Source: Bdellovibrionales bacterium RIFOXYD1_FULL_53_11 | GTDB lineage: Bacteria; Bdellovibrionota; UBA1018 | Direction of reading: 5' to 3' | DNA length: 48,807 nt | Assembly (NCBI GenBank): GCA_001770165.1 | Contig: MEQJ01000104.1 | Coordinates: 12,521 to 61,327, forward strand | Shown: positions 4,622 through 38,297 of the stretch, piece by piece | How the letters are laid out: each line of letters starts with the position of its first letter | Position numbering within the stretch: the first letter of the stretch is position 1 | Program-made: the position numbers and the translations under genes | The notes under the pieces: model-generated | Seen by the model: only the letters and a program-made list of their open reading frames with translations | Told to the model about the DNA's origin: nothing | Databases searched by the model: none

Positions 4622-6999
<2,378 letters not shown>

Positions 7000-7016
7000 T
7001 TGGCTCCCTTCGCGGC

Positions 7017-15611: not shown

Positions 15612-15639
15612 AATATGTCACTCATTTGCCGCAAGTCAA
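15612..15639 (-). promoter_or_regulatory. Candidate sigma-70 promoter for sodB
   Basis: On the minus strand TTGACT (complement of 15634-15639) is followed after 16 bases by CATATT (complement of 15612-15617), and the sodB ATG comes 30 bases later. Both boxes are close to the -35/-10 consensus. It would drive the sodB-mnmG-rsmG block. Confidence 0.45.
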
Positions 15640-15666
15640 TTTTTCCTAAATTGAAAATAGTGTTTT

Positions 15667-15679
15667 GGCGTGTTACGCC
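15667..15679. promoter_or_regulatory. Small dyad in the sodB/ferredoxin divergent region
   Basis: GGCGT, a three-base spacer, then ACGCC: a perfect five-base-arm inverted repeat 44 bases before the ferredoxin start in the 141-base divergent gap. It could be a regulator-binding site for either operon. Short, so possibly chance. Confidence 0.25.
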
Positions 15680-15722
15680 CGAAATAACCGGCTATTTGTA
15701 TATCAGCCCACAGGAGGCCCGC

Positions 15723-15962
15723 ATGAATAAAAAACTTCCAACCGTTGATATCAAGGTTGACCAGTGCAAGGGATGCATGCTGTGTATCGACAGCTGCCCG
15801 CAAAAAGTGCTTACCATGTCCACTACGTTCAATATCCTCGGATATCAATTTGCACAGCTTTCGGCCGAAGGATGCACGGGTTGCGATTCTTGTTATTATG
15901 CATGTCCGGAACCCGGCGCCATAACAATAATCAAAGAAAGAAAGAAGAGGGCAACGCCATGA
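15723..15962 (+). CDS. 2[4Fe-4S] ferredoxin subunit of 2-oxoacid:ferredoxin oxidoreductase
   Basis: A 79-residue delta-type ferredoxin subunit that passes electrons from the oxidoreductase to external ferredoxin. Two cluster motifs are visible: [12 protein letters not shown] (residues about 15-26) and [15 protein letters not shown] (about 51-65). I start at the ATG at 15723, which follows AGGAGG by five bases; a longer open frame upstream has no such site. Its stop overlaps the alpha-subunit start (ATGA). Confidence 0.92.
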
Positions 15963-17017
15963 AGCGGGAACTTATCAAGGGCAATGAGGCCGTTATCAAG
16001 GGCGCCGTTCTTGCCGGTTGTACGCACTATTTCGGCTATCCAATCACGCCGGCCAGCGAAATCGCACAGGCCGCCTCATATTATCTGCCCCTTTTTGGCG
16101 GCACCTTTATTCAGGCAGAAAGCGAGGTCGCCGCAATCAACATGGTATACGGCGCATCGTCCGCCGGCGTGCGAACCATGACCGCCTCAAGCGGTCCCGG
16201 AATGAGCCTGAAGCAGGAGGGCATCAGCTATCTCGCGGGCTCCGAGCTGCCGGCAGTAATTGTGGACATCATGCGCGCCGGCCCCGGTCTCGGCAACATC
16301 TGGCCCGAGCAGTCCGACTACCATCAGGTGGTAAAGGGCGGGGGGCACGGAAACTACAAGACCATAGTGCTTGCTCCAAACTCGGCGCAAGAGATGTGCG
16401 ATCTCACAATACTCGCGTTTGATCTCTCCGATAAATACCGATGCACCGCAGTCGTGCTCACGGATGGATATACCGGCCAGATGATGGAACCGGTTGAATT
16501 TCCGGAAGAGCTCAAAAAAGCTCCATACAAGGAGTGGGCCCTCTATGCGGATCAGAAACATCGCAAAAACCTTGTGACCTCCATCTTCATGAGCCCGCAA
16601 ACGCTCTTCGAGGTCAACACCCGCCTCAACCAGCGCTACAAAACCATCGAAAACAACGAAGTGCTGTTTGAAGACCTGCACGCATCTGATGCCAAGCTCG
16701 TGATTGTCGCCTATGGAATCATGAGTCGCGTGGCACATAACGCGATTGAAGAGCTTCGCGCTTCCGGCCTAAAAGTCGGCTTGATGCGCCCGAAAACCCT
16801 CTGGCCGTTCCCTGTCAAAAAATTAAAGGAGCTGTGCACGTCCGCGCAGGCATTCCTTGTGGCCGAGATGTCAAACGGCCAGATGCTCGAAGACGTGAAA
16901 CTTGCCATCGAACATTCGCGCCCGATCGAGTTCTTCGGCACCTGGGGCGGCACCGTCCCGTCTGTTGACGAACTCAAGAGCGCAATCAAAACCACCTACG
17001 AAAAAACAACCAGATAA
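15959..17017 (+). CDS. vorB: 2-oxoacid:ferredoxin oxidoreductase alpha subunit (VorB/KorA type)
   Basis: A 352-residue alpha subunit with the pyrimidine-binding and transketolase C-terminal domains. The [29 protein letters not shown] start, [19 protein letters not shown], and the [20 protein letters not shown] motif are typical. The complex oxidises a 2-oxoacid with CoA, giving acyl-CoA, CO2 and reduced ferredoxin, or runs in reverse. The closest family I recall is VorB (2-oxoisovalerate), but KorA (2-oxoglutarate) enzymes of deltaproteobacteria look very similar, so the substrate is open. ATG at 15959 overlaps the ferredoxin stop. Confidence 0.93.
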
Positions 17018-17035
17018 AGCTGGAGGCCCCACGAT

Positions 17036-18460
17036 ATGGAAGAAAAAGAAATTGTTACCAAAGGCAAACCCGAGGCTCTGTACGAAACGTTCTTTCGCAA
17101 GGACGGCAAAGACAAGTCAACCACCCATTACTGCCCCGGCTGCGGCCACGGCCGCGTGCACAAGCTGATTGCCGAGTCCCTTAACGAGCTGGGCGTTGCG
17201 GACCGGGCGGTATTTGTCTCTCCGGTCGGCTGTTCGGTGTTTGCATATTATTATATGAATATGGGCAACGTACAGGCCGCGCACGGCCGCGCACCCGCAG
17301 TTGGCACCGGAGTTGCCCGCGCACGGCCGGACAGCATTGTCATCAGCTATCAGGGCGACGGGGATCTGGCGGCCATCGGCACGGCTGAAATACTTCATGC
17401 CGCGAACCGCGGCGAAAACATGACCGTAATTTTCATTAACAATGCAATTTACGGAATGACCGGCGGCCAGATGGCCCCCACCACCATGATCGGCCAGAAA
17501 ACCCTTACCTCTCCGCGCGGCAGGTCGTCGGACAATGAGGGTTTTCCGATCCGCATGTGCGAAATCATCTCGACACTTGAGGCTCCGGTTTATGTTGAAC
17601 GCACCAGCTGTACTGACGTCAAAAATATTTTAAAAACAAAGCGCGCGATCAAAAAGGCGTTCAAGCTCCAAACAGAGCGCAAGGGGTTTTCGTTCATTGA
17701 AATACTTTGCGCCTGCCCGACCGGCTGGAAAAAAACCCCCAGGGATTCGATCAAATGGATCCAGGAAACGCTTGAGCCGTATTTCAAACCGGGCGTCTAC
17801 AAGGACGCGTCAGAAACCGCCCAGCCCAAACCGCGCATTGAGCCGTCAACCGATCCTGAACAGATCTTCACCGCACTCAACCTGCAAAAAGGCAAGTCCC
17901 CGCGCGCCACCGGCCGCAACATCGGCGAAAAGCGCATCAAGCTCGCCGGCTTTGGCGGACAGGGCGCTCTCACCGCCGGAGTTGCGATTGCCACCGCCGG
18001 CATGCATGACGGCTTTGACGTATCATGGCTTCCGTCCTATGGACCCGAGATGCGCGGAGGCACGGCAAATTGTTCGGTAATTATTTCGGACAAGCGCATC
18101 GGCATGCCGGTTGTGCTGAATCCCAATATCCTGGTGGCCCTGAACGGCCCGTCCCTTGATTCCTTCGAAGACGACGTCACTCCCGGCGGCCTTGTAATTG
18201 TCAACAGCTCCCTCATTGAGCGCAAGCTGAAGCGAGCAGACGTCAAATCCGTCTATGTCCCGCTCACGGAAATCGCAACCAATCTGGGGCTCAAGGCGGC
18301 GGCCAATATGGTCGCGCTTGGCGTTGTTCTTGGCTGCGAAAAACTTTTTGACAAGGAGCGCCTGCATGAGGTTTTTAAAACCTCGCTAAAACGCAAAGAC
18401 ACGCTCGAAATGAACATCAAAGCCGTTAATGCCGGTTTTGAGTTCGTACAAAAACACTAG
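17036..18460 (+). CDS. 2-oxoacid:ferredoxin oxidoreductase, fused beta and gamma subunits
   Basis: A 474-residue fusion. Residues 1 to about 285 are the thiamine-diphosphate beta subunit: YCPGCGHG at 32-38, the GDGDLAAIGTAEILHAANRG magnesium/TPP motif and NNAIYGMTGGQMAPTT. A linker of about 20 residues rich in Pro, Ser and Thr leads to the gamma subunit from about residue 300 (KLAGFGGQGALTAG, then SYGPEMRGGTANCSVIIS). The classical complexes have separate beta and gamma chains; here one chain fixes them 1:1. It completes the operon after the ferredoxin and alpha genes, 18 bases after alpha. Its TAG stop lies within a CTAG shared with the stop of the opposite-strand regulator. Confidence 0.95.
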   Translation: MEEKEIVTKGKPEALYETFFRKDGKDKSTTHYCPGCGHGRVHKLIAESLNELGVADRAVFVSPVGCSVFAYYYMNMGNVQAAHGRAPAVGTGVARARPDSIVISYQGDGDLAAIGTAEILHAANRGENMTVIFINNAIYGMTGGQMAPTTMIGQKTLTSPRGRSSDNEGFPIRMCEIISTLEAPVYVERTSCTDVKNILKTKRAIKKAFKLQTERKGFSFIEILCACPTGWKKTPRDSIKWIQETLEPYFKPGVYKDASETAQPKPRIEPSTDPEQIFTALNLQKGKSPRATGRNIGEKRIKLAGFGGQGALTAGVAIATAGMHDGFDVSWLPSYGPEMRGGTANCSVIISDKRIGMPVVLNPNILVALNGPSLDSFEDDVTPGGLVIVNSSLIERKLKRADVKSVYVPLTEIATNLGLKAAANMVALGVVLGCEKLFDKERLHEVFKTSLKRKDTLEMNIKAVNAGFEFVQKH

Positions 18461-18783
18461 TCCAGAAAATCTTCCGGCGGGCCCTTGGGGCTTTGACGCA
18501 TGCGCGGGCGGACGCTGCCCTGGCTGCCGGTTTGGATTCCGCCACTTCCCCGCTCAAGCCTGAACTGAAGATCGAGCGCGGTCATGACATCAAGCAGCTT
18601 GTCAAGCCGAAGCGTGGATTTGCCGTTTTCAAGCATATAAATAAACACTACGCCACACCCCGCCAGGGCGCCCAATTGCTCTTGAGTCAGCCTCAGCAGC
18701 TTGCGTTGTTGTCGTATTTTAAGCGCCAAACCACCGACAGTCTTAGCCCTGTCCATCTTCTGACAATTATCCGGTTCACTCAT
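18457..18783 (-). CDS. XRE-family regulator, HipB-like, no toxin partner
   Basis: About 108 residues from the ATG at 18783; a nearer ATG at 18756 is possible, and neither has a strong ribosome site. The helix-turn-helix spans about residues 17-70: LALKIRQQRKLLRLTQEQLGALAG, then IYMLENGKSTLRLDKLLDVMTALDLQF, the pattern of HipB/Y4mF-type DNA-binding proteins. The tail is Gly/Ser/Pro-rich and looks disordered. No HipA-type kinase lies next to it, so a toxin-antitoxin role is not supported. It is divergent from the Qmo-like/hydrogenase operon and shares an 79-base gap with it that contains a clean inverted repeat, so it is a candidate local regulator of that operon and of itself. Confidence 0.75.
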   Translation of the reverse strand: MSEPDNCQKMDRAKTVGGLALKIRQQRKLLRLTQEQLGALAGCGVVFIYMLENGKSTLRLDKLLDVMTALDLQFRLERGSGGIQTGSQGSVRPRMRQSPKGPPEDFLD

Positions 18784-18790
18784 TAAGATT

Positions 18791-18806
18791 GCAATATGTT
18801 TATTGC
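18791..18806. promoter_or_regulatory. Candidate operator between the XRE regulator and the hydrogenase operon
   Basis: GCAATA, spacer TGTT, then TATTGC: a perfect 6-4-6 inverted repeat, the size XRE/HipB dimers usually bind. It lies eight bases before the regulator start and 57 bases before the hdrA start. TTGCTT (18803-18808) overlaps it and is followed after 18 bases by TACAAA (18827-18832), a possible plus-strand promoter, so a bound protein could block both genes. Confidence 0.45.
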
Positions 18807-18862
18807 TTGCATTAAAAGCCTTTTTGTACAAAATATAACTAAATTTTTCGGAGGCAAGATTA

Positions 18863-20293
18863 ATGACTGGAAATAACAATCGCGGGGTTTTGTTCAAGGA
18901 ACATTCAGACTATCAATTCATTGATGCCAAGGTAAATTCCAACACTCTCGTAATAGGCGGAGGAATTGCCGGCATCCAGGCCTCCCTGGAGGTCGCCAAT
19001 GCCGGTTATCAAGTTTATCTTGTTGAAAAAAGCGGCACCATCGGCGGGCACATGGCCATGTTCGACAAAACCTTTCCTACGCTCGACTGTGCCGCCTGTA
19101 TTCTTACGCCGAAAATGGTGGAAGTCGGGCAGAATCCCAATATCAAACTGATGACGCTCTCCGAGGTCAAGGAAGTCCGGGGCGCTCCCGGAAATTTTAA
19201 AGTGAAAATCGAGATGAAAACACGGAGAGTTGACATCGCGACATGCATCGGTTGCGGAATATGCACCGAAAAATGCCCCGCCAGGGCGCCAAGCGAATTT
19301 GATGCCGGCATCTCACAAAGAAAAGCGATTTATATCCCGTTTCCGCAGGCGGTTCCCAATAAATATCTTGTCGACAAGGATTCCTGCACCTATTTCAAAA
19401 CAGGAAAATGCAGGGTTTGTGAAAAAGTCTGCCCCGCAGGCTCGGTCAAGCTTGATGACAAGGATTCGGAAATCGAGATCGAGGTGGGAAACATTATTGT
19501 TGCCACCGGCTTCAAACCCTTTGATCCGGCTCGCGCGGAACAATTCGGTTACGGCAGATATAAAAACGTGCTGGCCCCGCTTCAATTCGAGCGGCTTATC
19601 AACGCCTCGGGGCCGACCGCCGGACAGATCAAAATGCAGACCCAGGACAAAAAGGGCAAGTGGGTTTACTCTACGGACGGAAATGAGCCGGAGTCGGTCG
19701 CGATCATCCACTGCGTAGGCAGCCGCGACCACAATTACAACAAGCACTGTTCGCGGGTTTGCTGCATGTACTCTCTCAAGTTTGCGCATCTGATCAAGGA
19801 AAAACTTCCGAACGCCGAGGTCTTTGAATACTACATCGACATGCGCGCCTTCGGTAAGGGTTATGAAGAATTCTATCAGAGAATCAAGGAAGAGGGCGTT
19901 CATATCATAAGGGGCCGCACCGCCAAGGTCGAAGAGGCCGGCAACCGGCTCAAGATCCGGAGCGAGGACATTCTAGCTGGAAAGCTGATCGAACAGAATG
20001 TTGACATGGTTATTCTTTCTGCGGGCCTGGAGCCGCGTGAAAACGCAAAAAACATTGCGGGCATGCTGGACGTTTCTTCTGATGAGACCGGCTGGTTGAC
20101 CGAGGTCAATGACAAATCCGCACCGTTTGTTTCGAACAGACCCGGCATTTATCTCGCCGGCACCTGTCAGGGCCCCAAGGACATCCCGGACTCGGTGGCC
20201 CAGGCCTCCGCCGCCGCGGCAGTTGTCCTTCAAAGCATAGGCAGCGGAAAAATCAAGAAGTACGTAGCTGACACGACTGCAACATCGCTTTAA
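18863..20293 (+). CDS. hdrA: QmoA/HdrA-like FAD iron-sulfur flavoprotein
   Basis: A 476-residue HdrA-family flavoprotein. The FAD Rossmann motif GGGIAG is at residues 32-37, followed by the family's TFPTLDCAACILTPKM segment. Two [4Fe-4S] motifs are inserted in the flavin domain: CIGCGICTEKCP, and Cys-x7-Cys-x2-Cys-x3-CysPro (starting in CTYFKTGK). CVGSRDHNYNKHCSRVCCMYSLKFA and GPKDIPDSVAQASAAAA are family hallmarks. It lacks the N-terminal Cys domain and the C-terminal ferredoxin of full HdrA, as does QmoA of sulfate reducers. ATG at 18863 follows GGAGG. First gene of the operon; it should relay or split electrons between the hydrogenase side and the membrane subunit next door. Confidence 0.9.
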   Translation: MTGNNNRGVLFKEHSDYQFIDAKVNSNTLVIGGGIAGIQASLEVANAGYQVYLVEKSGTIGGHMAMFDKTFPTLDCAACILTPKMVEVGQNPNIKLMTLSEVKEVRGAPGNFKVKIEMKTRRVDIATCIGCGICTEKCPARAPSEFDAGISQRKAIYIPFPQAVPNKYLVDKDSCTYFKTGKCRVCEKVCPAGSVKLDDKDSEIEIEVGNIIVATGFKPFDPARAEQFGYGRYKNVLAPLQFERLINASGPTAGQIKMQTQDKKGKWVYSTDGNEPESVAIIHCVGSRDHNYNKHCSRVCCMYSLKFAHLIKEKLPNAEVFEYYIDMRAFGKGYEEFYQRIKEEGVHIIRGRTAKVEEAGNRLKIRSEDILAGKLIEQNVDMVILSAGLEPRENAKNIAGMLDVSSDETGWLTEVNDKSAPFVSNRPGIYLAGTCQGPKDIPDSVAQASAAAAVVLQSIGSGKIKKYVADTTATSL

Positions 20294-20313: not shown

Positions 20314-21447
20314 ATGAATGACATCAGAATTGAACCCAAGCTAAAAGAAAAACTGGAAGCCTTCGGCCTTGCGGACAACAATCTGTGCTTCAATTGCGGA
20401 AACTGCACCGCCGTCTGCGGACTTACGGAACGGGATCTCACCTTTCCAAGAAAGGGCATCCGCCATCTTCAACTGGGAATGTCGGAAAAGGTGAATCAAA
20501 GCGTTGAACCCTGGCTCTGTTATTACTGCGGAGACTGCTCCAAAACCTGCCCCAGGGAGGCAAATCCGGCCGAACAGATGATGTCTCTGCGGCGTTATCT
20601 GACATCCGTTTACGACTGGACCGGACTGTCGTTCAAATTCTATACTTCCAAGCTCTGGGAACTCGGAGCGCTTCTTTTTGTTGGCGCGATAGTCCTCGGC
20701 CTCTTCGGCCTGTATCATGCAACCAGCGCCGAACCCATCATCTGGGATCTGCGTGACGGCTATGTTCACCTTAACAGCTTCGCCCCCGTCATGTACGTTC
20801 ACTATGCCGACTGGGTAATGGCTGGCATTCTGTCTTTTTTCCTGCTTTCAAACCTGTTCAACATGTATTTGACCATAATGAGATCCGACAAGAGTCTGAA
20901 AATTCCGCTCCACCTTTATTTTACCAAGATCTTTTCCATCCCGCTTCATTTTGCGACACAGATGCGATTTAAAAAGTGTGATAATAAAATCGGATTCTGG
21001 TTCATGCATCTTTTTCTCATGTCAGGATACGGCTTTATGTTCATCCTCGTGTTAGTGCTTCTTCCCTGGTTTCAGATTGATCAGGGCATCAACTGGACAA
21101 CCTATCCGGGATATTATGCAACATTTGCGCTTTTGTATGGCAGTATTTACTGCATAATCGGCCGCTTGAGAAAAAAGGATGAAGTCCACAGATACACGCA
21201 TCCCAGCGACTGGATATTCCTGATCATGCTGTTTCTCACAACCCTGACCGGCATTATGGTGCATGTTTTCAGATATTATCTGCTCATGCCGGCGGCCACC
21301 TATTACACATATGCGATACATCTGGCCATTGCGGTTCCCATGCTGGTTGTTGAAGTCCCTTTTTCAAAGTGGGCACATCTCGCATTCAGGCCCTTTGCGA
21401 TGTATTTTGCTGACATTAAAAAAGCCGCGCTTGCTATAAAAAAATAG
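20314..21447 (+). CDS. qmoC: QmoC-like subunit: HdrC iron-sulfur domain fused to membrane cytochrome b
   Basis: A 377-residue two-part protein. Residues about 20-95 form an HdrC-type domain with two cluster motifs, CFNCGNCTAVC and CYYCGDCSKTCPREANP. From about residue 110 there are five or six membrane helices of the NarI/DsrM cytochrome b kind, with candidate haem ligands in FWFMHLF, GIMVHVFRY, YAIHLAI and KWAHLAFRP. HPSDWIFLIMLFLTTLTGI and VEVPFSKWAHLAFRP match the DsrM/QmoC signature. In QmoABC this subunit gives electrons to, or takes them from, menaquinone. Placed between two HdrA genes and followed by a hydrogenase, it suggests a membrane-bound complex. Confidence 0.9.
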   Translation: MNDIRIEPKLKEKLEAFGLADNNLCFNCGNCTAVCGLTERDLTFPRKGIRHLQLGMSEKVNQSVEPWLCYYCGDCSKTCPREANPAEQMMSLRRYLTSVYDWTGLSFKFYTSKLWELGALLFVGAIVLGLFGLYHATSAEPIIWDLRDGYVHLNSFAPVMYVHYADWVMAGILSFFLLSNLFNMYLTIMRSDKSLKIPLHLYFTKIFSIPLHFATQMRFKKCDNKIGFWFMHLFLMSGYGFMFILVLVLLPWFQIDQGINWTTYPGYYATFALLYGSIYCIIGRLRKKDEVHRYTHPSDWIFLIMLFLTTLTGIMVHVFRYYLLMPAATYYTYAIHLAIAVPMLVVEVPFSKWAHLAFRPFAMYFADIKKAALAIKK

Positions 21448-21505: not shown

Positions 21506-23251
21506 GTGGAACCTATAAGGATTGGCGTTTATATCTGCTGGTGCGGTTCAAATATCGCAAAAATGGTCGATGTTGAGCGGCTATCGAAGGAATTTTCAAA
21601 TTTTCCGAACGTTGTGGTCGCAAAAGACTATAAATACATGTGTTCGGATCCGGGACAGGATCTTATTGTTAAGGACATACAAGAACACAAGCTGAACCGG
21701 GTCGTGGTAGCGGCATGCTCGCCGAGAATGCACGAGATAACTTTTCAGAACGCCCTCAAAAAGGCCGGCCTGAACGCTTTTCTTTTTGAAATGTCAAACA
21801 TCAGGGAACAGTGCTCCTGGGTACATACCGACAAGGAACTTGCCACCGACAAGGCCAGGGCTCTCATCAAGGCGGCAATAAGCAGGGTGATACACCATGA
21901 GCCCCTGGAAAAAAGAACGGTCGAAATCAATCCGGCCACGCTGATTATTGGTGGCGGAGTCGCCGGAATCACGGCGGCCCTTCAACTTGCCGAAGCCGGT
22001 AAAAAAGTATTTCTCGTGGAAAAAACCGGCATGCTCGGCGGCAATGTCGCCCGGCTGCACACAACCTATCCGCACCAGTATCCCGCGGCAATCCTGTTGA
22101 ACACGCTGGTCAACAAGGTTGAGGCCAATAAAAACATCCAGGTCTTCAAGGATTCCATGGTTGTTGAAAACTCCGGCTATATAGGCAATTTCAAGTCCAA
22201 GATCTCTACAAAAGGGAAAACAACGGAAATCGAAGTCGGCAATGTCATTGTTGCAACAGGGCTTACCGCCTTCAATCCTTCGAAGCTCTCGCGCTTTGGT
22301 TATGGCAGAAATCCGGACGTCATCACGTCTGTTGAATTCGAGACAATGGCTAAATCCGGAAAAATCACAACAAAAGCCGGGGCGGTGCCCAAAACCGTTG
22401 CAATCGTGAACTGCGTGGGCAGCCGCGACCAGGACTCTCACGAATACTGTTCGCGCTGCTGTTGTCAAAACTCCCTTAAATACGCGAACCAGATAACCGC
22501 CAGCCATCCTGACGCGTCCGTTTATCTCATCCATTCAGACATGCGGTCGTTCGGCAAGGGCTGTGAAGAATTCTACGAACTGGCATCAAAAAACGGAACC
22601 ATCTTCGCGCTTTTTGACATCAAAACCCCGCCTGTCGTCAAAGCGACCGGCGCCCGGCCCGTTGTGGAGCTTAAAGAAAAAATGTCAGGTGAAAATCTTG
22701 AGATTGCCGCCGATCTGGTCGTCCTCTCAGTCGGAATGGAGGCAAACACCGATTCGCACGATATTGCCAAACTTGTCAGCATCAGCGTCGACAAGAACGG
22801 TTTTTTCATCGAAAAGCATCCGAAGCTTGATCCTGTGGCCACAACAACCGACGGAATCTACATCGCCGGATGCTGCCATGGTCCCAAAGACATAACTGAC
22901 TCCGTAATTCAGGCAAGCGCCGCCAGCGCGAGAATCCTGGCAACTGTCGCAAAAGGAAAGGTCGAGATTGCGGCTATCACGTCTTCGGTCACCGAGGAGC
23001 TTTGTGCCGGCTGTCAGACCTGCATCAAGGTTTGCCCCTATCTTGCGATATCTTTTGATGAAGTAAAAAAGGTGTCTGTTGTCAATGAGGCCCTTTGCAA
23101 GGGTTGTGGAACCTGCACTTCCGCCTGCCCCTCCGGCGCTATCGGCAGCAAGCATTTCATGCGGGTGCAGATCATATCGCAGATCGAGGGTCTTCTTGCT
23201 TTCGAAAAGCAAAGCAAACTCGACGGTAACAACAAAAGAGAGGTCATATAA
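21506..23251 (+). CDS. hdrA: HdrA-family flavoprotein with N-terminal Fe-S domain and C-terminal 2[4Fe-4S]
   Basis: A 581-residue full-length-type HdrA. The N-terminal domain has cysteines 11 and 13 (ICWCGSNI), 46 and 71, the set that holds an extra cluster in HdrA. The FAD domain has GGGVAGITAALQLAEAG, CVGSRDQDSHEYCSRCCCQNSLK and the GPKDITDSVIQASAASA hallmark. Two ferredoxin motifs close the protein: CAGCQTCIKVCP and CKGCGTCTSACP. Start is GTG at 21506 after GGAGG. With the adjoining MvhD it equals the domain content of QmoB, which in sulfate reducers is one chain of about 750 residues; here the two parts are separate genes with no base between them. Confidence 0.93.
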   Translation: MEPIRIGVYICWCGSNIAKMVDVERLSKEFSNFPNVVVAKDYKYMCSDPGQDLIVKDIQEHKLNRVVVAACSPRMHEITFQNALKKAGLNAFLFEMSNIREQCSWVHTDKELATDKARALIKAAISRVIHHEPLEKRTVEINPATLIIGGGVAGITAALQLAEAGKKVFLVEKTGMLGGNVARLHTTYPHQYPAAILLNTLVNKVEANKNIQVFKDSMVVENSGYIGNFKSKISTKGKTTEIEVGNVIVATGLTAFNPSKLSRFGYGRNPDVITSVEFETMAKSGKITTKAGAVPKTVAIVNCVGSRDQDSHEYCSRCCCQNSLKYANQITASHPDASVYLIHSDMRSFGKGCEEFYELASKNGTIFALFDIKTPPVVKATGARPVVELKEKMSGENLEIAADLVVLSVGMEANTDSHDIAKLVSISVDKNGFFIEKHPKLDPVATTTDGIYIAGCCHGPKDITDSVIQASAASARILATVAKGKVEIAAITSSVTEELCAGCQTCIKVCPYLAISFDEVKKVSVVNEALCKGCGTCTSACPSGAIGSKHFMRVQIISQIEGLLAFEKQSKLDGNNKREVI

Positions 23252-23680
23252 ATGAGTAACTTTGAACCAACCATTGTTGCTTTTTTGTGCAACTGGTGTT
23301 CCTACACCGGAGCGGATCTTGCCGGGACATCGCGCCTCAAATACAGACCCAATGTCCGGGTTATAAGGATAATGTGTTCCGGCCGCATTGAGCCGGCCTT
23401 TGTGTTGAAGGCCTTTCAAGAGGGGGCGGACGGAGTCATCATCTGCGGCTGTCACCCGGGCGATTGTCACTATCATTCCGGAAACTACAAGGCGCTAAGA
23501 CGGTACTATCTCATGAAAGAATACCTGAAACAGATGGGAATTGAAGAGGACAGGTTCAAGCTTGACTGGGTCAGCGCAAGCGAAGGTCATCGGTTTGCCG
23601 AGCTGGTCAACGAGGTTACCGGGAAAGTTGCGGCCCTGGGACCGTGCAAAATCAGCTCCAATATCGCGCGCTTCACCTGA
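23252..23680 (+). CDS. mvhD: MvhD, [2Fe-2S] electron-transfer subunit
   Basis: A 142-residue MvhD (F420-non-reducing hydrogenase delta-type subunit) that links the hydrogenase to HdrA. The expected cysteines are present: FLCNWCSYTGADLAG, RIMCSGRIEP and ICGCHPGDCHYHSGNYKA. Its ATG follows the hdrA TAA directly. Length is typical. It is the physical bridge expected between the MvhAG hydrogenase encoded next and the HdrA encoded before. Confidence 0.96.
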   Translation: MSNFEPTIVAFLCNWCSYTGADLAGTSRLKYRPNVRVIRIMCSGRIEPAFVLKAFQEGADGVIICGCHPGDCHYHSGNYKALRRYYLMKEYLKQMGIEEDRFKLDWVSASEGHRFAELVNEVTGKVAALGPCKISSNIARFT

Positions 23681-23696
23681 ATAAAGGATAAATATA

Positions 23697-24674
23697 ATGA
23701 ACACACAAAATAAACCAAAACTCAAAGTGGCCATTTACTGGGGCGCCGCCTGTGGTGGTTGCTGTGTTTCCGTGCTTGATGTACACGAGAAGGTTCTTGA
23801 CATCGTAAAAGCCGTGGATTTTGTATTCTGGCCGATCGCACTCGACATTAAATACAAGGATGTCGACGCCATGCCCGACAAATCCATTGATGTCTGTCTA
23901 TATAATGGAGCAATCAGAAACAGCGAAAATGAACATATCGCCAAGGTTTTGAGAAAAAAATCAAAAGTGCTGGTCGCGTACGGTTCATGCGCGCATTTGG
24001 GCGGCATCCCCGGTCTTGCAAATCTTACGACCAAGGAAGAAATCTTCCGGCGCGCCTATGAAGAAAGCGAATCAACCGTCAATCCGGACAAGATCCGCCC
24101 CACGACGGAAACAAAAATGCCGGAGGGAACCCTTACCCTCCCGCATATGTACAACGACGTTAAAACGCTGGCACAGACAGTACAGGTGGATTATTTCATC
24201 CCCGGCTGTCCTCCCCAGACAGAGCGTCTGGTTGAAGTCCTGATGCTCATTATTGAAGGCAAGCCGCTCCCGCCCGCCGGGTCTGTCGTGGGTGCGCTTG
24301 AAAAAACGCTGTGTGACACCTGCCCGCGCACAAAATCGGACAAAAAACTGGTAAAAGAATTCAAACGCCCCTGGCAGGTGCTTGATGACGGCATAACCTG
24401 TCTGCTTGAACAGGGGATCATCTGCATGGGACCGTCAACCCGCGGTGGCTGTGGTGCGAGATGCATCAGCGGCAACTACCCCTGCCGTGGCTGTTATGGC
24501 CCTCCGACCGATTCTCCGGATCCGGGCGCCGCCATGATGTCGGCAATTGGATCCATGATGGACGTCGAAAAGGACGAGGATATCAAAAAAATTGTTGAAC
24601 AGGTCGTGGATCCCGCCGGAACCTTCTACCGGTTCAGCGTTCCCGGCTCAATTCTGCGGAGGGCCTTAAAATGA
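23697..24674 (+). CDS. mvhG: [NiFe]-hydrogenase small subunit, Mvh (group 3c) type
   Basis: A 325-residue small subunit carrying the electron chain of Fe-S clusters. Cluster ligands are visible in ACGGCCVSVLD, YGSCAHLGG and PGCPPQ (proximal), and in the C-terminal part CDTCPRTKSDK, GIICMGPSTRGGCGARC and YPCRGCYGPP. No twin-arginine signal, so it is cytoplasmic. ATG at 23697 after AAAGGA; its stop overlaps mvhA by four bases. Confidence 0.95.
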   Translation: MNTQNKPKLKVAIYWGAACGGCCVSVLDVHEKVLDIVKAVDFVFWPIALDIKYKDVDAMPDKSIDVCLYNGAIRNSENEHIAKVLRKKSKVLVAYGSCAHLGGIPGLANLTTKEEIFRRAYEESESTVNPDKIRPTTETKMPEGTLTLPHMYNDVKTLAQTVQVDYFIPGCPPQTERLVEVLMLIIEGKPLPPAGSVVGALEKTLCDTCPRTKSDKKLVKEFKRPWQVLDDGITCLLEQGIICMGPSTRGGCGARCISGNYPCRGCYGPPTDSPDPGAAMMSAIGSMMDVEKDEDIKKIVEQVVDPAGTFYRFSVPGSILRRALK

Positions 24675-26134
24675 AACGATATACAATTGATCCGATCACG
24701 CGTCTTGAAGGCCACGGAAAAATTGAAATCTTCTGTAACGACGACGGAAGCGTTCAAAATGTGTACTTCCAGGTTCCGGAACTCCGCGGGTTTGAAAAAT
24801 TCTGCGAAGGCCGGCCTGTGGAAGAACTTCCGATGATTGTGTGCAAAATCTGCGGTGTTTGCCCCGAAGCGCACCATCTTGCGTCGGCAAAAGCCGTTGA
24901 TGCCGTTTTTGGCGTTGAAATCCCCTCTGCCGCAAAAAAACTCAGGGAACTCATCTATGCCGCACATTATATTCACAGCCACATCGCGCATTTTTACGCG
25001 CTTGCAGCCCCGGATTTCGTTGTAGGCCCGACGGCCAGCCCGGCCGAGCGCAATGTTCTTGGGGTTATCGGAAAGGTGGGGGTGCAGATCGGCTCCGAAG
25101 TGCTGAAGCACCGGCGACTGGCCCAGGAAATCCAGAAGGAACTTTGCGGCCACCAGACCTACTGCGTTTGCGCAATTCCGGGCGGAAACAACAAGGCGCT
25201 TTCCGAAGAGAAGCGGAAGGAATTCGAAATAATCGCAAAGAGCTGCGTTGATTTTTCAAAGTTCTCCTTGAAAATTTTCAATGACGTTGTTCTGGCAAAC
25301 AAGCAATATGTCGATATCATTTTAAACGGCCCGTATGCCCTCAACATCCACTCGATGGGCACCGTTGATGCCAATAACAAGGTCAATTTCTACGACGGAA
25401 AAATCCGGGTGGTCGATACAAAAGGGGTGGAAATCTGCAAATACGACAGCAAGGACTACAGGGATCATATTGCCGAACGTGTAGAATCCTGGAGTTATCT
25501 GAAATTTCCATATCTCAAGGCCAAGGGCTGGACGGGTTTTGTCGAAGGACAGGATTCGGGCGTATATCACGCTACTCCGTTATCACGGCTTAATGCCGCT
25601 GACGGCATGGCAACGCCGGTGGCCCACGAAGAATATCAAAAAATGTACTCAACGCTGGGCGGAAAGCCGGTGCACGCAACTCTTGCGATGCACTGGGCGA
25701 GACTTGTTGAGCTCGTCTATGCGTCCGAAAGACTGCATGAACTTTGCCGAGACAAAGAAATCACGGAACCCAAAGTACGGGTTCTCCCGACCAATACCCC
25801 GTCCGAGGGCGTAGGAAGTGTTGAGGCCCCGCGCGGCACGCTGACTCATCACTACTGGACTGACTCGCGCGGGATTGTCAAAAAAGTGAATATCGTCGTC
25901 GGCACCACGAACAATAACGCTCCGATCACGATGTCGATTAAAAAAGCCGCAATGGGGCTTATTAAAAAGGGCACCGTGGTAAACGAGGGAATTCTCAACA
26001 TGATTGAGATGGCCTTCAGGGCTTATGACCCCTGCTTTTCGTGTGCAACCCACAGTCTTCCCGGCAACATGCCGATGATTGTGAATATCCGCGATGCAAA
26101 GGGTGAAATCGTTCAGACCATCAAGCGCGGCTAG
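24671..26134 (+). CDS. mvhA: [NiFe]-hydrogenase large subunit, Mvh (group 3c) type
   Basis: The 487-residue catalytic subunit that splits or makes H2. The nickel-iron ligands are Cys61 and Cys64 in CKICGVCPEAHH near the N terminus and the DPCFSCATH motif near the C terminus. The residue before ICG is Lys where many hydrogenases have Arg; I recall bacterial 3c enzymes with this form. A 26-residue tail follows CATH and would be cut off by the maturation protease, encoded next. N-terminal DPITRLEGHGKIEI is classical. Confidence 0.96.
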   Translation: MKRYTIDPITRLEGHGKIEIFCNDDGSVQNVYFQVPELRGFEKFCEGRPVEELPMIVCKICGVCPEAHHLASAKAVDAVFGVEIPSAAKKLRELIYAAHYIHSHIAHFYALAAPDFVVGPTASPAERNVLGVIGKVGVQIGSEVLKHRRLAQEIQKELCGHQTYCVCAIPGGNNKALSEEKRKEFEIIAKSCVDFSKFSLKIFNDVVLANKQYVDIILNGPYALNIHSMGTVDANNKVNFYDGKIRVVDTKGVEICKYDSKDYRDHIAERVESWSYLKFPYLKAKGWTGFVEGQDSGVYHATPLSRLNAADGMATPVAHEEYQKMYSTLGGKPVHATLAMHWARLVELVYASERLHELCRDKEITEPKVRVLPTNTPSEGVGSVEAPRGTLTHHYWTDSRGIVKKVNIVVGTTNNNAPITMSIKKAAMGLIKKGTVVNEGILNMIEMAFRAYDPCFSCATHSLPGNMPMIVNIRDAKGEIVQTIKRG

Positions 26135-26148
26135 GAAGCGGGCAACAG

Positions 26149-26628
26149 GTGGGACAACGGGCGCTCGTATACGGAATAGGAAATCCTATTTTAACCGACG
26201 ACGCCATCGGTCCTAAAATTTGCGATCACCTTAAAATAAATCGCCCGATACCCGGAGTGGAATATAGAACCGGTGCCGTCGGGGGATTGTGCGCTCTGGA
26301 GCAGATTCTGGGTTATGAGCGTGTTGTTTTCATTGATGCAATCAGGACAAAAGACGGTATTCCGGGTGATGTGTATGAATTCGGCCTCAGCAACTTCAAG
26401 GAAACGCTCCATTTGTCGAGCTTCCATGATCTCTCCTTTCTTTCCGCAATCGAGATGGGCAAGAACATGGCCTTCAAGGTTCCCGGCGACATCAGGATAA
26501 TAGCGATAGAAATCGTTGAGGACCTTGTTTTTTCAAACAGCTTCTCGCCTGAAATTGAAAAAAAATATCCACTGATTCTAAAGGAGGTTACGGAGTGGTT
26601 TGATAGATGCTTCGTAGCCACCCCATGA
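26149..26628 (+). CDS. Hydrogenase maturation protease
   Basis: A 159-residue endopeptidase of the HyaD/HycI/FrhD family, which removes the C-terminal tail of the large subunit after nickel insertion. YGIGNPILTDDAIGPKICDHL at the start and FIDAIRTKDGIPGDVYEF in the middle carry the nickel-binding acidic residues; a His in the SSFHDLSF segment is the usual third ligand. GTG start at 26149, 14 bases after mvhA. It probably serves MvhA; it is the only such protease in the window, although a second hydrogenase is encoded at 41500-42843. Confidence 0.93.
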   Translation: MGQRALVYGIGNPILTDDAIGPKICDHLKINRPIPGVEYRTGAVGGLCALEQILGYERVVFIDAIRTKDGIPGDVYEFGLSNFKETLHLSSFHDLSFLSAIEMGKNMAFKVPGDIRIIAIEIVEDLVFSNSFSPEIEKKYPLILKEVTEWFDRCFVATP

Positions 26629-27977
26629 CCACGCACCTGACCGTCCTTACATTGCGAAACGCCAGCTGGTTCTGCCATCTCCGGTGGTTTGTTGTGTTGT
26701 TTCTGCTGGTTTCCGCATTATTGCTTTACGGCGGTCTCGGGGTGCATATAGGCATACAAGAGCCGCCTCACTGGCTGCTGGCCCTTTCCGCCATCCTGAC
26801 CGCAACAAATCTTCTATACCGATGGCACCTTAGAAAAAACATTCACAATCCGCGGCTGTCTGTTATTTCTTACAACCTCTGGATACAGATCATTATCGAC
26901 CTTGTGCTCCTAACCGTCACCATCCATTTCATCGGAAGCTCCGGCACTCTTGTCCCCTGCGCATATCTTTTTCATATCGTGCTGGCCTGCATATTTTTTG
27001 ACAAAATTAAATCATTTCTTGTCGCGGCGCTTTCCTTTGTTCTCTATTTTTCCTGTCTGGCCCTGGAATATTCCGGCAGCCTCCAGCCAAAATCACTTTT
27101 TTTGGCCTCCGGCAGACCGCATTTTGATCTTGCCGGTTCTGCGATCGACCTTGTCTCAATTTCCGGACTGCTTTTTTTCATCTGGTTTCTGACGTCACGC
27201 CTCTCCGAAAATCTCCGCCAGCGCGAACATGATCTCCGCGAGACAAATGCCCAGCTCATCAAAACGCAAAAAGAAAAAAGCAGGCACATGCTTCGTACAA
27301 CGCACGAGCTGAAGGCCCCATTTGCAGCAATTCATGCAAATCTGCAGCTTTTGTTGAACGGATACTGCGGCGTCCTTGCCGACGACGCCAAAGACGTCGT
27401 TACCAGGGTCAGCGCCCGCTGCGGCCTCCTCTCCCGGGCCATTCAAAGCATGCTGCAACTGAACAACATAACAACCGTCAGCCGGGATGCGCTCAACTGG
27501 CAGCGCCTGGATCTGAAGGATGTTCTGCAATACTGTATAGAGCAAATAACGCCGCTGGCCGGACAAAAGTCCATTATTATTGAAAGCCATCTTGAATCGG
27601 CATTAATCATCGGCGTTGAAGATCACATGAAAATCTGCTTTGACAACATTCTTTCAAACGCGATTGTCTATTCCAGGGCCGGTGGCCTCGTCCGCGTGTT
27701 GTGCCACGGATCCGACAGCGGCACGGCCGTTGTTTCGGTTGAAGACAACGGCATCGGGATTGATCCCGCTAAAATCCCTTTCATTTTTGATGAATATTAC
27801 AGGACAAAAGAGGCGGTTGCACATAACAACTATTCGACCGGGCTTGGACTTGCAATTGTCAATAATATTGCAAGAATCCACTCCATAACAATTGACGTTC
27901 AAAGTATTCCCGGTAGTGGCTCAAAATTCACTTTACGCGTTCCGACGGTCGGTATAGTCGGTATAGAAGGAGACTGA
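26625..27977 (+). CDS. Membrane sensor histidine kinase
   Basis: About 450 residues. The first about 195 hold five or six membrane helices with only short loops, so it probably senses something in or near the membrane. A short coiled coil leads to the HisKA domain with the phospho-acceptor His227 in TTHELKAPFAAIHANLQ, then a HATPase domain with FDNILSNAIVYSR, VEDNGIGIDPAKIPFIFDEYYR and STGLGLAIVNN. ATG at 26625 overlaps the protease stop (ATGA); an ATG at 26607 is an alternative. Co-transcription with the hydrogenase suggests it monitors redox or energy state; this is inference. Confidence 0.9.
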   Translation: MTTHLTVLTLRNASWFCHLRWFVVLFLLVSALLLYGGLGVHIGIQEPPHWLLALSAILTATNLLYRWHLRKNIHNPRLSVISYNLWIQIIIDLVLLTVTIHFIGSSGTLVPCAYLFHIVLACIFFDKIKSFLVAALSFVLYFSCLALEYSGSLQPKSLFLASGRPHFDLAGSAIDLVSISGLLFFIWFLTSRLSENLRQREHDLRETNAQLIKTQKEKSRHMLRTTHELKAPFAAIHANLQLLLNGYCGVLADDAKDVVTRVSARCGLLSRAIQSMLQLNNITTVSRDALNWQRLDLKDVLQYCIEQITPLAGQKSIIIESHLESALIIGVEDHMKICFDNILSNAIVYSRAGGLVRVLCHGSDSGTAVVSVEDNGIGIDPAKIPFIFDEYYRTKEAVAHNNYSTGLGLAIVNNIARIHSITIDVQSIPGSGSKFTLRVPTVGIVGIEGD

Positions 27978-27979
27978 TT

Positions 27980-28369
27980 ATGGCACGAGTGTTGATAGTT
28001 GATGATGATGCTGACTTTGCAAATGCTATTGCAAAAACCGTGGCAAGCGACGGCCATTTGACCGAGATCCAGCTCGACACCGCCAGCGCCATGAAAAGCA
28101 TTGAAACCAGGCGGCCCGATCTTGTGATTCTTGATGTCATGTTCCCGGAAAACGATACCGCCGGTTTCGAATTCGCCCGCCAGCTTCGCAACAATGACGA
28201 GTGTAAAAACATGCCGATACTGATGCTTACCGCCATAAATGCAAAATCAAGCCTCGGCTTCGGCGCCAAGGACATCGATGAATCCTGGCTTCCGGTTGAT
28301 GATTTCCTCGAAAAGCCGGTGGATCTGAATATTCTCAAGCAGCGCGTGGCGCAGATGCTCCAAAGATAG
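27980..28369 (+). CDS. Single-domain response regulator
   Basis: A 129-residue receiver domain with no output domain. The acidic pocket Asp8-Asp10, the phospho-acceptor Asp52 (VILDVMFPEND), the switch Thr in MLTAIN and the Lys of FLEKPVD are all present. A loop of about ten extra residues between the switch Thr and the EKPVD motif (GFGAKDIDESWLPVDD) is longer than in CheY. Two bases after the kinase, so they form a pair. It must act by protein contact or through a further relay. Confidence 0.93.
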   Translation: MARVLIVDDDADFANAIAKTVASDGHLTEIQLDTASAMKSIETRRPDLVILDVMFPENDTAGFEFARQLRNNDECKNMPILMLTAINAKSSLGFGAKDIDESWLPVDDFLEKPVDLNILKQRVAQMLQR

Positions 28370-28386: not shown

Positions 28387-29859
28387 CTATTTGAAAATAT
28401 CTGTTGATCGTTCGGCAAACAAATACAATGGGGACCAGTACACCCCGAGCACCAGCACAGGAACAGCCAGAATCACCGCTATTGCCGCAAAAGCCGCAGG
28501 AGCCCGCTTCATTATATTGTTGCCGGAAACCGGCTCCTTAAGAAACATCGCCTTGATTATCCGGGCATAGTAATAAAGCGAGACCGCAGAATTAACAACG
28601 CCGGCAAGCGCAATCACATAATACCAGTACCCGGCCTTTTTAATCAGCGCGGCAAACAGATAGAATTTACCGATAAACCCGCCGAAAGGAGGGATGCCGA
28701 CAAGCGAAAAAAGAAATATCGTCATGAGCACCGCCAGAAGGGGCTGTGTTTTAGACAGTCCGTCATAGGTGCTTATTTCCTCGCTTCCACCCGCCGAAGC
28801 CCTTACCGACATTACCACGACAAAAGCCCCGAGGTTCATCAGCATGTAAACTGCCGCATAAAACATCACGGCACTGGTGCCATCCGGTGATCCGGCCGAA
28901 ACCGCCATCAACATGTAGCCCGCATGAGCAATGCTTGAATATGCCAAAAGCCTTTTGATGTTGTTTTGATGAATCGCCGCAATATTTCCGAGTGTCATCG
29001 TGGCGACGGAGATAATTCCGATAATGGCCGGCCACGGGATCGTACCGGCAGGAAGCGCCGAGATTAGAAACCGGATCAGAACGGCAAAGCCTGCTGCTTT
29101 CGGGCCGACAGACAGGATCGCGGCAACAGGCGTCGGAGCGCCCTCGTAAACGTCCGGGCACCACATATGGAATGGAACCGCCGCAATTTTATAAGCAAAT
29201 CCGGCAAAAACCATCATTACCGAAACAGATCCGATCAGCTTCGCGGAAGTTGTCGCACCACCCGCGAAAATCTGCTCCAGTCCACGTCCGATTTCCACAA
29301 TATCAAGAGAGCCGACAAGCCCGTAAAGATATGAAAAACCAAAAAGCATCAGCCCGCTGGCCAGCGCGCCATAAACCACGTATTTGAGCGCCGCCTCTGT
29401 TGAGCGCTTGTCGCGGCGCCGGAAGGCGACCAGCACATACGAGGCAACCGAAAGAAATTCGAGCGAAAGAAATATCATAAGCGCATTTGTGGCGCTTGAA
29501 AGCAGAAACATGGCAAGCGTCATGGCCAGAAGAATTGCGTAGTACTCCCCGTCCCGGTCACGCTCGACCTCATCAGAAAAATATGAAAAAACAACGGCAG
29601 CGCACACGGCCACGGCAAAAAGCGCCTTGAAATAAACAGAAAAAGCATCCGCATGAACCATTCCGCCGAACAAAAGACCGCTTGACGACGCGGGACAAAA
29701 CAGGCAAATGCCGGCGCCACACACCGTCACAAACGCTATTGCCGCAACAACAACTCTTTTTATGGGTTTTCGGGACAAGAACAAATCCGCCACAAAAGCG
29801 GCCAGAACGCCCGCGACCAGAACAATCTCGGGGCAGAAGGCCGTCAGATCCTGCTGCAT
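28387..29859 (-). CDS. nuoN: Complex I subunit N
   Basis: A 490-residue antiporter-like membrane subunit with about 14 helices; one of the three proton (or sodium) channels of complex I. Family segments include SLEFLSVASYVLVAF, KYVVYGALASGLMLFGFSYLYG, PFHMWCPDVYEGAPTPVAAILSVGPKAAGFA and NIKRLLAYSSIAHAGYMLM. ATG overlaps the nuoM end by 16 bases. Last gene of the operon; it faces the response regulator tail to tail, 17 bases apart. Confidence 0.96.
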   Translation of the reverse strand: MQQDLTAFCPEIVLVAGVLAAFVADLFLSRKPIKRVVVAAIAFVTVCGAGICLFCPASSSGLLFGGMVHADAFSVYFKALFAVAVCAAVVFSYFSDEVERDRDGEYYAILLAMTLAMFLLSSATNALMIFLSLEFLSVASYVLVAFRRRDKRSTEAALKYVVYGALASGLMLFGFSYLYGLVGSLDIVEIGRGLEQIFAGGATTSAKLIGSVSVMMVFAGFAYKIAAVPFHMWCPDVYEGAPTPVAAILSVGPKAAGFAVLIRFLISALPAGTIPWPAIIGIISVATMTLGNIAAIHQNNIKRLLAYSSIAHAGYMLMAVSAGSPDGTSAVMFYAAVYMLMNLGAFVVVMSVRASAGGSEEISTYDGLSKTQPLLAVLMTIFLFSLVGIPPFGGFIGKFYLFAALIKKAGYWYYVIALAGVVNSAVSLYYYARIIKAMFLKEPVSGNNIMKRAPAAFAAIAVILAVPVLVLGVYWSPLYLFAERSTDIFK

Positions 29860-31448
29860 ACCACATCCATAAGCGCGTGCAATGACTTGTTCATCAGATC
29901 AAACACCGGCAGCGGATAAAATCCGAATATTATGACCATGACACCAAGCGGATAAAGCGTGATGCGCTCGCGCCAGTTGAGATCCCAGAGAGTGCTCCAT
30001 TTGTCGTTGAGTTTGCCAAGAAACATCCTCTGTATGGTCCATAGATAATACGCCGCCGTGATAATCACCGCAGTTGCCGAAACCACAGTGAATAATCTGA
30101 ATTTTACAAAGGCCCCCGCAAAAACCAGAAATTCACCGATAAAACCCGCAAGTCCCGGAAGTCCGAGGCTTGCCATGAACGCAAGCCCCATGATGCCCGA
30201 ATATTCCGGCATCTTCTGCGCAAGACCGCCAAATCCTTCGATGTCCCTTGTATGCGCACGGTCGTATATCACCCCGGCTATCAAAAACAGCATGGGAGAT
30301 ATGAGCCCGTGACTAACCATCGTAAACACCGCCCCCGTGATCCCCTGCGGGGTCATGGCGGCCATTCCCAAAAGCACAAAGCCCATATGACTTACCGACG
30401 AGTATGCGATCATCTTCTTGAGATCTTTTTGTGCAAGGCAGACAAATGCGGCATAAACAATATTGATCATCCCGAACACCGCGATCGTATGCGCGGCCCA
30501 GTTGGCCGCATCTGGAAGCATCTGAAAATTGAACCGGAGCATTCCATAGGCACCCATCTTGAGAAGAATGCCGGCCAGGATCACCGAGATGGGCGTGGGC
30601 GCCTCAACGTGCGCATCCGGCAGCCATGTGTGAAACGGAAACATTGGAACTTTGATCGAAAAGCCGATGAAAAGCCCCACAAACACGATTTTTGAAAAAG
30701 CAAAACCCAGAACCGGCGCGGCGCCGGCAAAAAAACCCGCCTGGCCCATGGCCGAAAGCGCCATTATGTTGAAGGTGTGCTGCGCCGGAGTCCCGTCAAC
30801 AAGCGTTGACGGGCCGGACGCATAATAAAGACCAATCATGCATAAAAGCATGAGCACTGATCCCGCAAGCGTATAAAGAAAGAATTTAATCGCAGCGTAT
30901 TCTTTGCGCGGCCCCCCCCAGATACCAATCAAAAAATACATTGGAAGCAGCATGAGTTCCCAGAAAATATAGAACTGGAAGAAATCAAGAGCGCAAAACG
31001 TTCCAAGCATTCCGGTTTCAAGCAGTAAAAACATCACCATGTACCCCGGCACCTTCTTACCGGTAAAATGCTGCCCCTCGATTTTTCCCCACCAGGGAAC
31101 AGAGGCGATCATGGCTACAAAAGTTATGAGCGCGGTAAGCAGAACCATTGTAATGGATATCCCGTCAACGCCCATGAAATATTCGATGTTGAACTGTCTC
31201 ATCCAGACAAAGTGATGGACAAACTGCATGCCCGTGGAATTGCCGTCAAAGCCGGCCCACAGCCGCACAGCAAGCAAGAGCACTCCAAGCGTACTGACAA
31301 ACGCTATGGCACGCGACACATTGTCCAGGGCGGCCTTGGACAAGGAAAACACGTAATTCAGGATAACAAGCCCGATAATCAACCCCGCGCCAATCATGGG
31401 CAGGAAGGTCATCCAGGTAAGCAGTGTTGAAGTTGTTTGATATTCCAT
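29844..31448 (-). CDS. nuoM: Complex I subunit M
   Basis: A 534-residue antiporter-like membrane subunit. FFQFYIFWELMLLPMYFLIGIWGG carries the conserved membrane glutamate, and FHTWLPDAHVEAPTPISVILAG, KKMIAYSSVSHMGFVLLGM are standard NuoM motifs. The gene lies 16 bases after nuoL. Confidence 0.97.
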   Translation of the reverse strand: MEYQTTSTLLTWMTFLPMIGAGLIIGLVILNYVFSLSKAALDNVSRAIAFVSTLGVLLLAVRLWAGFDGNSTGMQFVHHFVWMRQFNIEYFMGVDGISITMVLLTALITFVAMIASVPWWGKIEGQHFTGKKVPGYMVMFLLLETGMLGTFCALDFFQFYIFWELMLLPMYFLIGIWGGPRKEYAAIKFFLYTLAGSVLMLLCMIGLYYASGPSTLVDGTPAQHTFNIMALSAMGQAGFFAGAAPVLGFAFSKIVFVGLFIGFSIKVPMFPFHTWLPDAHVEAPTPISVILAGILLKMGAYGMLRFNFQMLPDAANWAAHTIAVFGMINIVYAAFVCLAQKDLKKMIAYSSVSHMGFVLLGMAAMTPQGITGAVFTMVSHGLISPMLFLIAGVIYDRAHTRDIEGFGGLAQKMPEYSGIMGLAFMASLGLPGLAGFIGEFLVFAGAFVKFRLFTVVSATAVIITAAYYLWTIQRMFLGKLNDKWSTLWDLNWRERITLYPLGVMVIIFGFYPLPVFDLMNKSLHALMDVVCSRI

Positions 31449-31464
31449 GCGATCAGTCCCTCAC

Positions 31465-34910: not shown

Positions 34911-34923
34911 CGTGTCCGCCCGC

Positions 34924-36159: not shown

Positions 36160-36161
36160 GA

Positions 36162-38286: not shown

Positions 38287-38297
38287 TTCAAGGCTCC

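Follow-up and report, generated by a model that had tools for sequence, protein, structure and literature searches.

A QmoC-like membrane subunit in an Mvh-type hydrogenase operon of a Bdellovibrionales bacterium points to a bacterial H2:quinone oxidoreductase

Introduction

Cytoplasmic hydrogenases of the Mvh type are as a rule soluble enzymes that serve disulfide reduction. A membrane-linked form has been put forward for the Archaeoglobi, with a highly transcribed cluster of Candidatus Methanoglobus hypatiae reported to encode MvhAGD, two HdrA proteins, and a QmoC-HdrC fusion, with HdrB described as absent, and proposed to couple the oxidation of H2 to the reduction of both menaquinone and ferredoxin (PMC10945360). 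An earlier suggestion, made for Archaeoglobus sulfaticallidus, is that Mvh might also join QmoB (PMC3949148), and a QmoC/HdrA/Mvh complex is mentioned in the discussion of a methanogen whose own operon, as described there, is without Mvh (PMC12008871). In Thermodesulfovibrio sp. N1, QmoABC is described beside the apr genes, with Mvh placed with HdrACB in a separate operon (PMC5165239). Two b haems are reported in the membrane subunit QmoC (PMC3779200), and in EtfD of Mycobacterium smegmatis a single b haem, held by His78 and His241 and lying 4–5 Å from a putative menaquinone (PMC13083937). No bacterial description of the operon presented here was recognised in the literature searched, in which subscription journals are thinly covered.

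Here we describe a qmoC-like gene in a 48,807-nucleotide stretch of DNA (the window, to which all coordinates refer unless another stretch is named) from Bdellovibrionales bacterium RIFOXYD1_FULL_53_11 (contig MEQJ01000104.1, positions 12,521 to 61,327), the genome of which (G000) is 86.5% complete. The original prediction was a cytochrome b subunit with four candidate haem-ligand histidines, encoded in a hydrogenase operon.

Results

The operon and its neighbours

The gene under study (20314..21447, + strand) opens with an ATG and forms an open frame of 377 amino acids, comprising an HdrC-like Fe-S half and six predicted membrane helices, and it lies in the order qmoA-qmoC-qmoB-mvhD-mvhG-mvhA-protease. 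The preceding qmoA-like gene (18863..20293, +) encodes a short HdrA with an FAD domain and an inserted two-cluster ferredoxin domain, without the HdrA N- and C-terminal domains; its product aligns to residues 138–564 of the HdrA chain 8rvv_A (E 1e-140), and scores 529 bits against NCBIfam HdrA2 over positions 131–567 of 777, under the cut-off of 1100. The qmoB-like gene (21506..23251, +) encodes a longer HdrA with an N-terminal domain, an FAD domain, and a C-terminal two-cluster ferredoxin, without the inserted ferredoxin domain, and aligns to HdrA 5odc_A over 1–239 and 317–650 (E 4e-149). Judged from these alignments, the QmoA and QmoB chains are complementary, with the HdrA domains divided between two proteins.

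Downstream lie mvhD, encoding the [2Fe-2S] link subunit (23252..23680, +; Pfam FlpD 186.8 bits, over cut-off), mvhG, encoding the hydrogenase small subunit (23697..24674, +; Pfam Oxidored_q6 88 bits, over cut-off, and NCBIfam VhuG 223 bits, under the cut-off of 450), and mvhA, encoding the [NiFe] large subunit (24671..26134, +). The best PDB match of the latter is MvhA 5odc_F (E 8e-112), in an alignment spanning both CxxC motifs, KICGVC and DPCFSC, with a score of 372 bits against NCBIfam VhuA, under the cut-off of 800. The hydrogenase maturation protease follows (26149..26628, +; TIGR00072 80.7 bits, over cut-off). As in group 3c (Mvh), MvhA has a CxxC motif towards each terminus, and MvhG and MvhD are adjacent; the HdrABC partner of that group, which includes HdrB, was not found, the operon contig being without a match to the HdrB-type CCG domain. 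The domain and family matches of the operon genes thus bear out the predicted placement of a haem-type membrane subunit inside a group 3c-like hydrogenase operon, and gene content agrees with the original prediction that this subunit supplies a membrane route absent from Mvh/HdrABC.

A 2-oxoacid:ferredoxin oxidoreductase cluster, identified by family searches, lies directly 5' of qmoA (15615–18460). A small frame divergent from qmoA (18457–18897, −) appears by eye to be helix-turn-helix-like, and is a possible local regulator. Directly after the maturation protease (26607–28369, +) are a histidine kinase, identified by domain match, and a frame resembling a response regulator by eye. A complex I cluster occupies 28387–38699 (−), with subunits A–D, H, I, J, and L recognised by family search and M and N by eye, and no NADH-module gene was found among the window frames examined. 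Divergent from nuoA is a second, group 3b-like [NiFe] hydrogenase cassette (38746–42843, +) of HydB-type, FAD/NAD-type, small, and large subunits, all under NCBIfam cut-offs where tested. The possibility of a foreign or contaminant contig was considered by GC content, a weak test which gives no sign of recent foreign origin (window 0.519, operon 0.502, three other stretches of the same genome 0.522–0.566, and the stretch of the relative in G290, described below, 0.607).

Recurrence in other genomes

A scan by exact peptide patterns, which has only near relatives within its reach, returned one relative (stretch L002 of genome G290), from a MAG named 'uncultured proteobacterium', with the gene order of the window from qmoA to the protease and 47–73% identity (QmoC 57%, MvhA 73%). 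Directly 5' of its qmoA is a similar-looking group 3b cassette, seen by eye and with weak matches. Of 377 genomes sampled from the phylum of this relative, 97 gave a match in an HMM search. The window protein and all 12 rows spanning nearly the whole profile make up the set of 13 full-length sequences compared below, in which identity to the window protein falls as low as 21%. Contig G324:C166 carries the complete operon in the window's order, and G488:C69 all operon genes in shuffled order together with a second mvhGA pair, this divergent mvhG/mvhA pair (6132–8219 of stretch L089) lying next to the Mvh-Qmo cluster. No mvhG or mvhA was found in the contig stretches of the other nine QmoC homologues, several of which are on short contigs.

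Within the window's own phylum, a QmoC match occurs in 11 of 290 genomes and is strong and full-length in the window's genome alone; in its class, 1 of 58 genomes has a match. The classes of G324 (71 genomes) and G290 (52 genomes) yielded no Mvh-linked or clade case beyond G324, G488, and G290, with their other QmoC matches being type-I QmoC and the protein of G373. No genome is common to the two phylum draws, which suggests that the window and L002 genomes belong to two phyla. Viral contigs, when scanned, yielded no relative.

At two further loci, G291:C115 (L091 2654–5500; a member of the clade described below) and the more distant G373 (L056 12446–15211), qmoC lies beside mvhD and a gene for an HdrA fusion of 921–948 amino acids with a GltD/NfnB-like domain (Fer4_20 plus Pyr_redox_2). 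This arrangement suggests that the same membrane exit is here fed from a nucleotide.

The QmoC-like protein and its histidines

The first ~95 residues of the product match the HdrC chains of solved heterodisulfide reductases and contain two complete CxxCxxCxxxC motifs for [4Fe-4S] clusters (C25, C28, C31, C35 and C69, C72, C75, C79; 20386..20550, +), with all eight cysteines invariant in the 13 sequences. The protein scores 162.6 bits against NCBIfam qmoC (NF038018) over positions 8–360 of 360, under the cut-off of 300, and 21.8 bits against Pfam Nitrate_red_gam (the NarI family), just under the gathering cut-off of 22.9. The architecture of QmoC, an HdrC-like half and a membrane half with three family-wide histidines, is found in the window protein, which is, on these matches, a QmoC relative with an HdrC-like two-[4Fe-4S] half joined to a membrane half.

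The window protein contains 12 histidines. All four motifs named in the original prediction lie in the open frame, with FWFMHLF holding H232, GIMVHVFRY H317, YAIHLAI H336, and KWAHLAFRP H355. H232 (codon 21007..21009, +; helix 3), H336 (21319..21321, +; helix 6, on the distal haem side), and H355 (21376..21378, +; end of helix 6) are His in all 13 full-length sequences. H232 and H355 are the predicted proximal haem ligands, corresponding to His78 and His241 of EtfD in hhalign alignments made via the EtfD-like protein encoded in the genome of the window; H355 also corresponds to NarI H205, and H336 is aligned with NarI H187. In contrast, H317 (21262..21264, +; helix 5) is confined to one clade. 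Five sequences have His here (both G324 proteins and those of the window, G290, and G488), G291:C115 has Asn, and each of the remaining seven, among them all five QmoC proteins over the family cut-off, has Glu or Gln. H317 was also considered as a mark of hydrogenase-linked QmoC, and was rejected as such on its occurrence in G324:C59, an 11 kb contig without a match to mvhG or mvhA.

Two further histidines lie outside the four originally named. H163 (20800..20802, +; start of helix 2), the proposed partner of H336, is His in 6 of the 13 sequences, those of the window, G290, G488, G324 (both proteins), and G373. The five over-cut-off QmoC proteins have their His a helical turn before this, at position 159, a placement common to four alignment modes. 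H212 (20947..20949, +; short helix ahead of helix 3) is His in five, whereas the over-cut-off proteins, again five, carry a His at position 216. All three of H163, H212, and H317 are lost in G291:C115, which belongs to the clade and has no mvhGA neighbours.

In NarI the haem ligands are H56, H66, H187, and H205, two on each of two facing helices, and all four residues were checked as His. We infer from its position that H232 corresponds to NarI H56. Ten residues past H232 in helix 3, where NarI has H66, stands M242 (21037..21039, +), at a position that is Met in all six clade members and Leu in six and Ala in one of the other sequences, and the NarI set of four histidines is therefore not reproduced. 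Comparison of QmoC with a single NarI sequence by hhalign is weak, with a probability of 26% at best and only the region with H187 and H205 covered; the best probabilities were 66% against the EtfD-like protein and 96% against L008, which was labelled DsrM-like by eye. Because of this weakness, the match to NarI rests mainly on spacing, on EtfD, and on a PFS(K/R) motif that precedes the final His.

The expectation of enough histidines for two b haems, as in NarI, is thus upheld for the pair H232/H355, which has its equivalent in EtfD His78/His241, and not for H317 as the fourth ligand. When the four histidines are aligned with QmoC, H232, H336, and H355 are common to all, and H317 is replaced by Glu or Gln in the five over-cut-off proteins. 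As QmoC is reported with two b haems (PMC3779200) yet has Glu or Gln at this position, H317 is unnecessary for two haems. A second haem, if present, is best assigned, from residue conservation, to H336 with H163, or with M242 as a His/Met pair, with H317 the weaker candidate.

A distinct clade and its predicted structure

Six of the 13 sequences, the window protein among them, group as one clade (support 100/99), with 21–28% identity to the five over-cut-off QmoC proteins, or 21–23% for the window protein itself. The spacing from H336 to H355 is 19 in all six members compared with 18 in the other seven sequences, and P342, D166, and E347 are present in all six and absent from those seven, with D166 and E347 in predicted helices. 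Taken together, the clade differences look like a remodelled haem or quinone region.

AlphaFold2, run with two usable sequences (the window protein and that of L002), gave a first model with a mean pLDDT of 47.5 and a pTM of 0.45, and a second, for residues 105–377, with 56.9 and 0.46. The helices of the first, low-confidence model span residues 113–137, 156–189, 224–249, 264–286, 297–322, and 326–350, and those of the second, likewise poor, fall in almost the same places. Foldseek returned no match with an E value of 0.001 or lower, and alignment of the model with pLDDT 56.9 by VIA-align gave Z scores of 7.3 for both NarI and EtfD, level with unrelated helical bundles.

Haem, quinone, and partner genes

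Ferrochelatase is encoded in the genome of the window and in G290 and G488, and was not found in G324. UbiE is over cut-off in G324 and G488, and not in G290 or the window's genome (86.5% complete), and MqnC, which reached its cut-off in no genome of the four, had no match at all in the window's genome. AprA has no match in the window's genome, at the same completeness, or in G290 and G488, and two matches far under cut-off in G324. The operon contigs of the four genomes gave no CCG match. Other contigs carry eight such matches in G290, six in G324, and seven in G488, and these genomes may have separate HdrB-type partners; in the window's genome the only two CCG matches fall in one EtfD-like frame. 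That frame (L017 211–3083; E 2e-130 to 9ojn) lies beside one that looks by eye like EtfA, and so a second quinone-type route appears to be encoded. F-type ATP synthase genes and a frame reading by eye as MnmG mark this genome as bacterial.

Discussion

The operon probably encodes a membrane-anchored Mvh-Qmo complex acting as an H2:quinone oxidoreductase, in which complex formation, the number of haems, quinone as the partner, the direction of flow, and coupling to ferredoxin are features that we infer. H2 would be split at MvhA, with electrons relayed by the MvhG and MvhD Fe-S clusters to the flavin heterodimer of QmoB and QmoA, and from these flavins through the HdrC-like clusters of QmoC to a b haem on H232/H355 and on to quinone. 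A second haem on H336, for which H163 or M242 is a likelier partner than H317, may lie en route to the quinone, and one flavin may also trade electrons with ferredoxin.

The same complex could also run in reverse, with electrons from quinol and reduced ferredoxin merged to form H2 as an outlet in fermentation or fatty acid oxidation. The 2-oxoacid:ferredoxin oxidoreductase cluster directly upstream, together with the EtfD-like protein beside an apparent EtfA, makes both donors plausible, and the group 3b-like hydrogenase in the window also fits such a role. However, the passage of electrons from quinol to H2 is steeply uphill except at very low H2 with highly reduced ferredoxin, and we consider reverse flow somewhat unlikely. 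A little more weight is due to the possibility, doubtful as it is, that QmoC holds only the proximal haem on H232/H355, as EtfD does, with H336, H163, and H317 lining a quinone site. EtfD has an equivalent of H336 (His223 by alignment) yet only one haem, the loss of H163, H212, and H317 together in G291:C115 is in keeping with a single haem, and a protonated quinone site would be served by D166 and E347, which are specific to the clade and lie in predicted helices. Against this stand the two b haems reported for canonical QmoC (PMC3779200) and the His found one turn from H163 in the five over-cut-off sequences.

It is quite improbable that the acceptor is a soluble disulfide or other partner rather than quinone, with the membrane half no more than an anchor. 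HdrABC is the usual partner of Mvh, the window's genome has neither UbiE nor MqnC over cut-off, and CCG matches do occur on other contigs of G290, G324, and G488; however, the four operon contigs are without one, the window's genome has none outside the EtfD-like frame, and the haem-type histidines are invariant. If the genes were those of an ordinary QmoABC that serves APS reductase, and the hydrogenase merely lay beside it, the match to the QmoC profile over nearly its full length would be accounted for, and a closer relation to HdrA is reported for Qmo genes of type II (PMC10504309). That reading is extremely hard to reconcile with the lack of an AprA match in the genome of the window, G290, and G488, with the 21–23% identity between the over-cut-off QmoC proteins and the window protein, and with the hydrogenase genes holding their position in G290 and G324.

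Returning to the H2:quinone oxidoreductase, a more specific proposal, which we hold to be decidedly unlikely in its entirety, is that the distal haem or quinone site has been rebuilt in this clade, making it a QmoC subfamily of its own. In it, the TM2 His would have moved one turn inward (159 to 163), the H336–H355 spacing grown from 18 to 19 with an added proline, and Met come to occupy the place of NarI H66, alongside H317, D166, and E347. A His/Met or re-ligated second haem of altered potential could then open a two-way flow of electrons between a cytoplasmic [NiFe] hydrogenase and both quinone and ferredoxin jointly, in bacteria that show no match to APS reductase.

A quinone-linked Mvh, if true, would make H2 respiration possible in bacteria without methanogenesis or sulfate respiration, or would alternatively allow quinol electrons to be vented as H2 with the assistance of ferredoxin. 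The kind described in Archaeoglobi had been an untested proposal, and the Mvh-Qmo arrangement is supported as a working unit because the bacterial operons keep their gene order. These operons also provide sequences for choosing mutants.

Comparison with known systems

Among the described systems, the Mvh-HdrABC complex of methanogens (5odc) has the same MvhA, MvhG, MvhD, HdrA, and HdrC modules, whereas here HdrB is missing from the operon, HdrA is present as two complementary chains, and HdrC is fused to a membrane half. NarI and DsrM share H336 and H355, which match NarI H187 and H205, and the placement of H232 like NarI H56, and differ in that Met, Leu, or Ala stands at the place of NarI H66, with the Nitrate_red_gam score short of its threshold (21.8 compared with 22.9 bits). 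EtfD, the ETF:menaquinone oxidoreductase (9ojn), has the same three histidines, two of which hold its b haem; however, its electrons are reported to come from ETF via HdrB-type clusters, and one haem only is described (PMC13083937).

The QmoABC complex of sulfate reducers (NF038018) is similar in its HdrC-membrane fusion, its H232, H336, and H355 equivalents, its eight cysteines, and its QmoA- and QmoB-type partners. It differs in sequence (21–23% identity) and setting, with MvhD, MvhG, and MvhA as neighbours here and no AprA match, and in the distal region, where the window protein has the TM2 His shifted by one turn, a spacing of 19 compared with 18, and H317, M242, D166, and E347. By description, the Qmo genes of type II are closer to HdrA and occur also in organisms without Dsr and Apr, in a report the main text of which never mentions 'hydrogenase' or 'Mvh' (PMC10504309).

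The closest likeness in gene content is to the Mvh-Qmo-Hdr cluster of the Archaeoglobi Ca. Methanoglobus hypatiae and Ca. M. nevadensis, the described features of which, namely MvhAGD, two HdrA-type proteins (one named QmoB), a QmoC-HdrC fusion, and no HdrB alongside, are all found in the window, and a group 3b hydrogenase is likewise reported in the same genome (PMC10945360). Those organisms are archaeal methanogens, whereas ours are bacterial MAGs, and the comparison is one of gene content. The window operon is thus a bacterial member of the Mvh-Qmo kind known in Archaeoglobi, with a distinct QmoC subfamily.
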